64,000 nt of DNA from Asaia siamensis (GTDB taxonomy: Bacteria > Pseudomonadota > Alphaproteobacteria > Acetobacterales > Acetobacteraceae), in the NCBI RefSeq assembly GCF_014635085.1, contig NZ_BMCH01000001.1:713151-777150 (forward strand), in the 5' to 3' direction. This document shows positions 32,317 to 34,206 of this stretch, in pieces (the first letter of the stretch is position 1; each line of letters begins with the position of its first letter). The translations under genes and the position numbers were made by a program. The notes below the pieces were generated by a model. That model searched no databases. It saw only the letters and a program-made list of their open reading frames with translations, and had not been told where the DNA came from.

Positions 32317-32841
32317 ATGAATGGCCTTGTGCGTCGCGCCAAGATATTTGCGACCAGAGCCCATGCCTCGATCGGGCAGAAACGCAAATATGACGGCCAG
32401 GATTATATCGTTCACCCTGAGGCAGTGGCGCTGATCGTGGCGACAGCGGGTGGACGGCCCGAGGCGGTCGCTGCGGCCTGGCTTCATGACGTCGTTGAAG
32501 ACACACCCGTTACCCAGGCCGAGATCGACACCGTCTTCGGTTCCGATGTCGGGAGTCTTGTCGAGATGCTGACCGATGTGAGCCGCCCCGAGGATGGTAA
32601 CCGCGAGACGCGCAAGGCGATTGACCGGGCCCATTCGGCACGGGCGAGTGCCGAGGGACAGACGATCAAGCTGGCTGATCTGCTGGACAATGCCCGTTCG
32701 ATCATCCGTCACGACAAGGATTTCGCCGTGACGTTCCTGCGCGAGATGAAGCAGCTCATGCCGCTTCTGACGAAGGGAGATCGCAGGCTTCATCGCGAAC
32801 TCGGCGACGTGCTGGATGCCTGGGAAAAATCACGGTCATGA
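32317..32841 (+). CDS. stand-alone SpoT-type HD phosphohydrolase (MESH1-like)
   Basis: 174 residues, one HD domain with no synthetase or TGS domain. IVHPEAVALI, WLHDVVEDTPV (the HD pair and ED diad) and KLADLLDNARSI match the (p)ppGpp hydrolase domain of SpoT and small alarmone hydrolases. It may remove the 3'-diphosphate of ppGpp or a related nucleotide. The ATGA at 32838-32841 joins it to a nucleotidyltransferase, which hints at a shared nucleotide. Different from the usual full-length Rel/SpoT, which must be encoded elsewhere. Confidence 0.85.
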   Translation: MNGLVRRAKIFATRAHASIGQKRKYDGQDYIVHPEAVALIVATAGGRPEAVAAAWLHDVVEDTPVTQAEIDTVFGSDVGSLVEMLTDVSRPEDGNRETRKAIDRAHSARASAEGQTIKLADLLDNARSIIRHDKDFAVTFLREMKQLMPLLTKGDRRLHRELGDVLDAWEKSRS

Positions 32842-33830
32842 CACCCGTCATTCGCATGGTGGCGGGATCGCATCTCTATGGCACCGATACGCCTGCTTCT
32901 GATACCGATCTCAAGGCAGTCTTTCTGCCCTCGGCACGCGATATCCTGCTGCAATCCTGTCAGGATGTCGTTGTGACGCAGCGTGAAAAGACTCACGGCG
33001 AGCGTAACCAGGCTGGTGAAGTCGACGAAACCGGCTTCTCGCTCCACCGCTTTCTCGATTTTCTCGGGCAGGGCCAGATTGTTGCGCTCGATATGGTTTT
33101 TACGCCTCCTGAATTCTGGCTGGAGGAGCCGCATCCTGTCTGGCATCGCATTGTTGGCTCCCGTCTTTCGCTGATCGGGCTGAGTACGGCGAGTTTTCTG
33201 GGCTATTGCCGTGCCCATGCAGAGCGCAATGGCGCGCGCGGTGCGCGACTGGCAGAGTTGACTCAGATGGCACGCTTCCTAGGAGAGGAGCGCGCCTCTC
33301 ATGGGGGCGCCGGGCGTCTGGAAGATATCGAGACAAGGCTGCGCGATTTTATCGCCACCTCGAATTTCGCGCATACGGCAATCGTCATGATCGATCAGCC
33401 GGGCCCTAACGGGGCTGTTGCGCATCTGAGCTGTGCCGGGCGCAAGACGCCTTTCAGGACGAAGCTGAGTGACGCGGAGGCACTTCTGGCTCGTGCTGCA
33501 GCGAGCTACGGGGCCCGCGCCAATGCGTCCAGCAACGGTTCAGACGGGAAAGCGCTCAGCCATGCGTTGAGGGTGGGCTATCAGACCAGGGAATTGCTGA
33601 GCACGGGTCATATCACCTTTCCAAGGCCCGAGGCCGACCATCTGCGTGCGATCAAAGGAGGGAAAGTGAGTGCTGAGTGCGTTGGTCAGGAACTCGAAGC
33701 TCTGCTGATAGAGATCGAACGTCTTGCAGACTCGACCTCATTCGTCGGCGTCGAACCCGATCGTGCTCTAAGAGACGATCTCATCTGTCATACGTACAAA
33801 AATGCTATCTTCGAGTTGGAAAAAATTTAA
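32838..33830 (+). CDS. RlaP/YcgL-like nucleotidyltransferase (DNA polymerase beta superfamily)
   Basis: 330 residues. The catalytic loop is at the N-terminus: GSHLYGTDTPASDTDLKAVF gives the G-S ... D-x-D metal site. The following VDETGFSLHRFLDFLGQGQI and ALDMVF fit the group of proteins annotated as predicted nucleotidyltransferases (RlaP group, known next to RNA ligases and in phages). The C-terminal half is helical with repeated Ala. No RNA ligase is adjacent; the partner here is the HD hydrolase, overlapping by 4 nt. Function not established. Confidence 0.72.
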   Translation: MTPVIRMVAGSHLYGTDTPASDTDLKAVFLPSARDILLQSCQDVVVTQREKTHGERNQAGEVDETGFSLHRFLDFLGQGQIVALDMVFTPPEFWLEEPHPVWHRIVGSRLSLIGLSTASFLGYCRAHAERNGARGARLAELTQMARFLGEERASHGGAGRLEDIETRLRDFIATSNFAHTAIVMIDQPGPNGAVAHLSCAGRKTPFRTKLSDAEALLARAAASYGARANASSNGSDGKALSHALRVGYQTRELLSTGHITFPRPEADHLRAIKGGKVSAECVGQELEALLIEIERLADSTSFVGVEPDRALRDDLICHTYKNAIFELEKI

Positions 33831-33871: not shown

Positions 33872-33903
33872 GTTATGTGTTGTGTAAGTAATTGGAGAAA
33901 CTT

Positions 33904-34206
33904 ATGGTCATAAATGGAAATTTTCTTGTCCCGGGCGAAAAGTACCTGATGAAAATATGGACCGGGCTGAGCAGTGAGGTTTTTAAAAAGACGGAGGAAG
34001 TAACCTTCGTTGGATATATCTTCGATGGTCTACCGGTTCTCGGAAAGTCTTTCGCAATGAAAGATCTGGTGCCGGGCAAAAACCAGAAAGCCTATATGCT
34101 CGCGTTAGATGGCCAATACATTGTGATCGGCGCTCCCGTTCACAATGGGATCTGGGCGACAGATGAGGGAGACAGGGTCACATTCTCCACATTGGCGAGC
34201 AACTGA
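33904..34206 (+). CDS. orphan small protein
   Basis: 100 residues from ATG 33904, with GGAG 6-9 nt upstream (the frame also opens at a TTG 12 nt earlier). No family is recognised. The sequence has a beta-rich look (EVTFVGYIFDGLPVLG, YIVIGAPVHNGIW), no signal peptide and no Cys. Codons and flanking DNA are AT-richer than the neighbours, suggesting transfer. It follows the HD/nucleotidyltransferase pair by 73 nt on the same strand. Confidence 0.6.
   Translation: MVINGNFLVPGEKYLMKIWTGLSSEVFKKTEEVTFVGYIFDGLPVLGKSFAMKDLVPGKNQKAYMLALDGQYIVIGAPVHNGIWATDEGDRVTFSTLASN

Follow-up and report, generated by a model that had tools for sequence, protein, structure and literature searches.

A phage-related pair of an SAH-type HD hydrolase and an NrdC.11-family nucleotidyltransferase in Asaia siamensis, a candidate RNA-end repair module

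Introduction

GlnD, the bacterial CCA-adding enzyme, and bifunctional Rel/SpoT all combine a nucleotidyltransferase with an HD domain, and in SAH-toxSAS modules of the FaRel or CapRel type, the hydrolase gene adjoins one whose product is a transferase with a polymerase-beta-class fold. According to passages of PMC11559606, an SAH of phage SSU5 takes off the tRNA modification installed by the toxSAS FaRel2. For RlaP, the prediction is that it replaces nucleotides that RNA ends have lost, prior to their ligation (RlaP section of PMC7824862), and the excerpts of the literature that we found assign no substrate to its T4 relative NrdC.11. PMC7824862 treats RlaP and the phage HD-alarmone enzymes, which are predicted there to act on alarmone, in separate sections, and within those sections we saw no link between the two.

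Here we describe a locus of Asaia siamensis in which a gene for an SAH-type HD protein (HD) overlaps one for an RlaP-like nucleotidyltransferase (NT). Positions refer to the window, the whole 64,000-nucleotide stretch of DNA that was analyzed.

Results

Two overlapping genes encode an SAH-type HD protein and an NrdC.11-family nucleotidyltransferase

Both open reading frames, their motifs, and their ATGA overlap are exactly as a first-pass annotation of the letters had described them (Table 1), and the two families that it had named, an SAH-type HD protein and a polymerase-beta nucleotidyltransferase, are borne out by Pfam, PHROG, and solved chains. From the overlap, translational coupling of NT to HD would be expected.

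Table 1. Positions of the HD and NT features in the window
Feature	Position	Strand	Description
HD	32317-32841	+	174 aa; SAH-type single-domain protein; ORF listing and profile searches
Codons of HD motif H57-D58..E61-D62	32485-32502	+	
ATGA, overlap of HD stop and NT start	32838-32841	+	kept in Asaia genome G680
NT	32838-33830	+	330 aa; polymerase-beta-superfamily nucleotidyltransferase, PHROG 388 (T4 NrdC.11; RlaP-like)
Codons of NT catalytic GS...SDxD motif, residues 10-24	32865-32909	+	

HD is a stand-alone protein of the Rel/SpoT type. It exceeded the Pfam cut-offs for HD_4 (60.8 bits, cut-off 27.2) and HD (27.8 bits, cut-off 22) and matched PHROG 990 (4.7e-33); the solved chains that matched it were SAH and Rel hydrolases, with Lmo0812, Rel, and MESH1 the best. 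The stretches WLHDVVEDT and KLADLLDN are present and the HD motif is complete (H33, H57-D58, E61-D62, D121, and N125), the same residues being invariant across the NT-paired HDs that were aligned (17 of the 21). Pfam returned HD families only, with no synthetase domain in the protein, and the sole RelA_SpoT synthetase match of the genome sits away from the HD locus. Over 151 columns, the window HD and a phosphohydrolase of phage SSU5 share 46% identity, and because the latter is the sole SSU5 match we take it to be the published PaSpo. Activity on (p)ppGpp, (p)ppApp, or tRNA 3'-pyrophosphate can be predicted for HD from this homology. A protein 60% identical to HD is encoded in the Komagataeibacter phage phiKM1 (L015:3334-4513), after HicA/HicB-like genes and near an integrase.

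NT reached the cut-off for PF10127 (RlaP) with its N-terminal part only (33.2 bits, cut-off 23; profile positions 23-99 of 249), while its match to PHROG 388 was full length (3.4e-59; residues 1-324, profile positions 36-334 of 351); the T4 member of that family, called nrdC.11 in other records, is 31% identical to NT. The motif GSHLYG...SDTDLK supplies G10-S11 and D22-x-D24, the GS...DxD signature of the polymerase-beta superfamily. Among 100 aligned NT sequences, G10, D22, and D24 are invariant and S11 is conserved at 90% or more; D85 is a candidate third metal ligand, by comparison with the general motif. R227, K238, and R245 are also invariant in these 100 sequences, with R137 at 90% or more, and such basic residues would suit a polyanionic substrate. 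The match of NT to PF10127 was the only Pfam match at an E value of 0.1 or better, and the CCA-enzyme head profile was not among its matches.

In an AlphaFold2 model (pLDDT 92.9), NT has an N-terminal nucleotidyltransferase domain and a mostly helical C-terminal part. A fold search with this model returned nothing at E ≤ 0.001. VIA-align placed HalB first (Z 9.1-9.4 over 166-174 residues), followed by a nucleotidyltransferase-like protein (Z 7.4) and aminoglycoside nucleotidyltransferases (about 6.8), with MntA-type proteins lower. These matches back the modeled fold of NT and are too generic for choosing a substrate; that no CCA enzyme stands among the matches listed carries no weight either way. 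The window copy is itself unusual: of the 48 positions with a conservation of 90% or more it deviates at 8, the second-highest count among the 100 sequences, and its end branch is the only one flagged as long on the NT tree (1.53, median 0.36).

The HD-NT pair recurs in other phages and bacteria

To place the pair in other genomes, an alignment of six NTs was searched, which gave 56 bacterial or archaeal genome loci and 383 viral-contig relatives, of which the best 80 were taken; before clustering, an SAH-type HD lay beside NT in 5 of the 56 genome loci and in 14 of these best 80 viral loci. A further scan used 12 paired NTs and the window NT as queries, and again the best 80 loci were kept. 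We retained the 202 loci with an NT of at least 250 aa (the broken copies in the Asaia genomes G192 and G286 were among the shorter ones dropped) and clustered them at 97%, which left 132 distinct NTs. An SAH-type HD was present in the locus for 21 of the 132, a fraction that is not a population rate because only the best 80 loci were kept and one scan was queried with paired NTs.

In all 21 paired loci, the two genes lie on the same strand and within 622 bp of each other, and the gap between the domains is at most 44 bp in 15. The order is HD-NT in 11 and NT-HD in 10. No HD was found beyond 622 bp from NT, in a set where 97 of the 132 loci and 16 of the 21 paired ones extend 3.5 kb or more to either side. 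One pair is a natural NT-HD fusion, a single 556-aa protein (L105:1035-2702) with a weak phage-integrase match, below the Pfam cut-off, about 0.6 kb upstream. In its AlphaFold2 model both domains fold and the last NT helix continues into the first HD helix; the arrangement of the domains in this model is unreliable because the pTM is 0.57.

Pairing has changed repeatedly during the history of NT. On the NT tree it requires about 10 changes (gains or losses), at least 6 of them forced by starred branches; on an HD tree that includes 32 stand-alone HDs it requires 8, of which starred branches force only 1. NT and HD distances among the 21 pairs are correlated (r 0.41; 9 of 5000 permutations as high). 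The first-pass annotation had named adjacency in this genome only as a finding that would refute it; that idea fails, being ruled out by the 21 paired loci, found in both orders and once as a fusion, and by the roughly 10 tree changes. The functional coupling that it proposed is likely.

Many relatives occur singly. No HD was found in the locus for 111 of the 132 NTs, and no NT was found near HD, in the flanks examined, for any of the best 80 viral HD loci (more HD loci were listed). Thus, in many phages either gene functions alone. No place in 1,669 matching phage records or 276 plasmids covered 80% or more of the fusion, a search that a poorly matching pair could escape, and NT relatives match 1,431 phage records. 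In genomes of the bacterial family, 10 of 299 reached the NT threshold, and a full-length NT is confined to the source genome (G000), G132, and G181; the other matches were the broken copies of G192 and G286, a 61-residue piece in G235, and four weak matches inside frames of 546-661 aa. Across the class, NT was found in 5 of 385 genomes, the source genome included, and no HD lay near NT in the other four within a flank of up to 1.5 kb.

RNA-repair genes neighbor NT relatives and some paired loci

The families that recur around NT include RtcB, PNKP (kinase and HAD phosphatase), the RNA ligase PF09414, calcineurin-like phosphoesterases, SLOG proteins, and Ro60/TROVE. We compared their occurrence by BLAST with ten query proteins, all of them from NT loci, such that ten loci (three paired) match themselves; the stand-alone HD loci used for comparison were the shorter ones (7.0 versus 9.1 kb). 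RtcB, PNKP, Rnl, TROVE, or SAK-HAD was found in 27 of 132 NT loci (for the reasons given above, not a population rate) versus 3 of 89 stand-alone HD loci (Fisher p 0.0002), and in 5 of the 21 paired loci versus the same 3 of 89 (Fisher p 0.006). With the query-supplying loci removed, the NT loci remained enriched (17 of 122 versus 3 of 89, p 0.009) and the paired loci were not significantly so (2 of 18 versus 3 of 89, p 0.20).

A test with Pfam models over whole records is free of this query bias. It covered 16 paired viral records (1.13 Mb in total) and 34 HD-only viral records (3.05 Mb), the latter chosen at contigs of about 15 kb or more. RtcB, TROVE, or RNA ligase exceeded the cut-off in 5 of 16 paired versus 2 of 34 HD-only records (p 0.027). 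RtcB was found in 2, TROVE in 2, and RNA ligase in 3 of the paired records, and RNA ligase alone in 2 of the HD-only records; two of the three ligase-bearing paired records are L089 and L100, where the ligase is tens of kb from the pair. Closer arrangements also occur: on the viral contig L101 (L101:2042-5511) the order is RtcB, a 182-aa ORF, NT, and HD, and nearby genes encode TROVE in L088 and L100, SAK-HAD in L323, and RtcB in L089. The 94 neighbor ORFs scanned, of 135 in the paired loci, included RtcB (2), TROVE (2), HAD_SAK_2 (1), and the peptidyl-tRNA hydrolase PTH2 (1), together with ordinary neighbors such as terminases, HNH, transport, and chemotaxis genes. Outside the paired set, TROVE-like and RtcB-like genes lie near NT in L024, L052, L057, and L076, where no HD was found, and in L032 (an Asticcacaulis MAG) an 888-aa frame, placed by clustering with a calcineurin-type protein, starts at the NT end.

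The first-pass annotation had placed this nucleotidyltransferase group next to RNA ligases and called them absent here. The association holds for some NT relatives, which sit beside RtcB, Rnl, or PNKP, and the absence holds for the surroundings of the pair: no RNA-repair gene was seen beside it in the window, and the RtcB that the source genome does encode is on another contig.

A reading that these observations bear on directly is that the two are independent phage accessory genes that share cargo islands, with HD lowering (p)ppGpp or reversing toxSAS and NT repairing RNA, and no joint pathway. We regard this as rather unlikely. It would explain why each gene is common alone, why the sections of PMC7824862 on jumbo phages describe HD-alarmone enzymes and RlaP separately, and why the RNA-repair enrichment of paired loci is weak without the query-supplying loci. 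However, it does not readily account for the fusion, the ATGA-type junctions, the two gene orders, or the correlated divergence of NT and HD, and a loose island would place some HDs at 0.7-3.5 kb from NT, where none was found.

Within Asaia the pair is dispensable

We examined nine Asaia genomes at the corresponding site, which is flanked by a gene for an MFS-type transporter and one for a methyltransferase-like protein (names read from translations only). The pair is intact in 2 of 9 (G000 and G680), broken or partly kept in 3, and in 4 (G679, G149, G228, and G085) neither gene is at the site. G680, another species whose assembly is marked as 9% contaminated, keeps both frames, the gene order, and the ATGA junction, with 89% identity to the source genome for HD and 67% for NT; its NT lacks S11 and K26. 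Nei-Gojobori dN/dS between the two genomes was 0.08 for HD (dS 0.95) and 0.12 for NT (dS 2.1), values for which dS is near or above saturation and which fall inside the range of four flanking genes (0.042-0.143). Because G680 keeps the frames, order, and junction and dN/dS is low, the joint presence of HD and NT is more than chance.

Elsewhere the site has decayed. In G192, HD is interrupted by an in-frame stop, and NT by stops and frame breaks. In G286 both genes have frame breaks, and a neighboring gene is split in the assembly too. G259 (L418:2158-3464) has an intact HD with a DUF6847 protein occupying the NT position, and some neighboring genes there are split. Assembly errors may explain the frame breaks of G286 and G679, as genes next to the site are split there too. 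Thus, the pair, being intact, broken, or missing from one genome to the next, is an old, dispensable resident in which NT is the less constrained partner, and its appearance here is that of a remnant, long resident in the host, with an unusually diverged NT.

A recent prophage at the locus is unlikely: the flanking genes are common to the genus, the GC content of the pair (58-61%) is like that of its surroundings, and the pair or its remains occupy the same site in G680, G192, G286, and G259, each a further species. Directly after the pair, a short ORF at 33892-34206 coincides with a GC trough of 43% and has no family match in Pfam or PHROG; a relative of it is present in G679, a genome without HD and NT. 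The only tRNAs found in the window are two tandem tRNA-Arg(acg) genes at 2223-2408.

A phage or defense origin had also been suggested for the pair. The phage half of that suggestion stands, given the many relatives of each gene in phage records and viral contigs. A defense role at this locus finds no support: PADLOC returned no match for the three proteins scanned there, and most of the nine Asaia genomes have lost the pair or carry it broken. A defense island is likewise unsupported, PADLOC having no match for these three proteins.

Discussion

The families, the catalytic residues, the co-directional adjacency, the fusion, and the RNA-repair genes near NT relatives and some paired loci are observed. 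Side-by-side recurrence and the one fusion suggest that HD and NT mend blocked or shortened RNA ends together. We tentatively propose, with somewhat less than an even chance of being right, that the pair serves in RNA-end repair, as a phage-related module residing on the chromosome. In this scheme HD, as an SAH-type enzyme, would free the 3' end of an RNA (the likeliest being the 3'-CCA of tRNA) of a phosphate or pyrophosphate, and NT would then restore nucleotides at the cleared end, either alone or ahead of RtcB or Rnl ligation where the phage has a ligase. This order, clearing and then refilling, is suggested by the presence of an enzyme that clears tRNA 3' ends beside a member of a family believed to restore the ends of RNA. 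HD would take the place of the PNKP, HAD, or calcineurin phosphatases of other NT loci, and the original use may have been to let phage translation continue while host systems block or shorten tRNA ends. We infer the RNA substrate, the step order, and the anti-defense purpose. The first-pass annotation had instead supposed that one enzyme adds and the other removes a nucleotide; the HD family is expected to take off a 3' (pyro)phosphate.

A narrower version of the proposal can be drawn for dedicated phage repair, in which the SAH would remove the 3'-pyrophosphate that toxSAS or CapRel-type enzymes place on the tRNA CCA, and the NrdC.11-family NT would rebuild the end, which would assign a substrate to T4 NrdC.11 and its relatives. 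This tRNA-3'-pyrophosphate reading is attractive and unproven, and we consider it unlikely in that exact form.

It is improbable that the two genes are a toxin-antitoxin pair, with NT a toxin that modifies tRNA or protein by nucleotidyl transfer, in the manner of MenT or MNT, and HD the partner that reverses or neutralizes it. PMC9765508, PMC11782079, and PMC10435456, and PMC11559606 for MenT, do describe SAHs as toxSAS antitoxins and nucleotidyltransferase toxins that extend tRNA acceptor stems; MNT-type proteins are among the structural matches of NT, and the genes overlap. Yet NT occurs without HD in 111 of 132 loci and in T4, which does not fit HD as its antitoxin, both gene orders occur, G259 retains HD without NT, and PADLOC had no match for the three proteins scanned.

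We give very little credence to a signal module, in which NT would make a nucleotide or oligonucleotide signal and HD degrade it: HalB, the best structural match, has oligodeoxyadenylate bound, and degradation of nucleotide signals is described for HD enzymes (HD section of PMC7824862), but the HalB Z score is close to the warning range of the tool, several neighbors are RNA-repair genes, and no effector was noticed among the recurring neighbor families. Just as improbable is a chromosomal regulator of the host stringent response, with HD trimming (p)ppGpp and NT incidental, for although the host has a single Rel/SpoT, HD has a dN/dS of 0.08, and G259 keeps HD without NT, 4 of 9 Asaia genomes lack both genes, the G192 copies are broken, and G680 retains the ATGA junction to NT.

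In the open-licence literature searched, we found no report of HD-NT coupling. Both families are known, and we read their coupling as a new form of phage RNA repair. If the RNA-end repair proposal is true, phages would be equipped with paired enzymes for reversing immunity that acts on tRNA ends. With a partner that recurs, is fused to it once, and has a relative with a published action on tRNA, an orphan NT family becomes a testable pathway, and it would tie phage alarmone hydrolases to RNA repair and not to the stringent response alone.

Compared with the phage RNA-repair enzymes of the RlaP and PHROG 388 (T4 NrdC.11) group, the window NT has the catalytic motif in common; it differs in that its Pfam match is N-terminal only, its partner is an SAH-type HD, and it is a fast-evolving copy, and while some of those relatives lie near RtcB, Rnl, PNKP, or TROVE, the window NT has no ligase neighbor. 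HD resembles the phage SAHs (the SSU5 phosphohydrolase and PHROG 990), and also MESH1 and Lmo0812 outside phages, in having one HD domain with the same catalytic residues, but its gene overlaps a nucleotidyltransferase gene, whereas the annotation of SSU5 shows no such gene up to 2.5 kb away from that of the phosphohydrolase. The pair shares with SAH-toxSAS modules a hydrolase encoded beside a transferase; unlike toxSAS, NT has no RelA_SpoT synthetase domain by Pfam, is found in both gene orders, and often occurs without HD. Finally, the logic of a polymerase-beta-fold transferase with an HD hydrolase is the same as in GlnD, the CCA-adding enzyme, and Rel/SpoT, and L105 is such a fusion. The transferase and HD families of those enzymes differ from NT and HD, and, unlike them, the HD-NT pair is usually encoded by two genes, in both orders.
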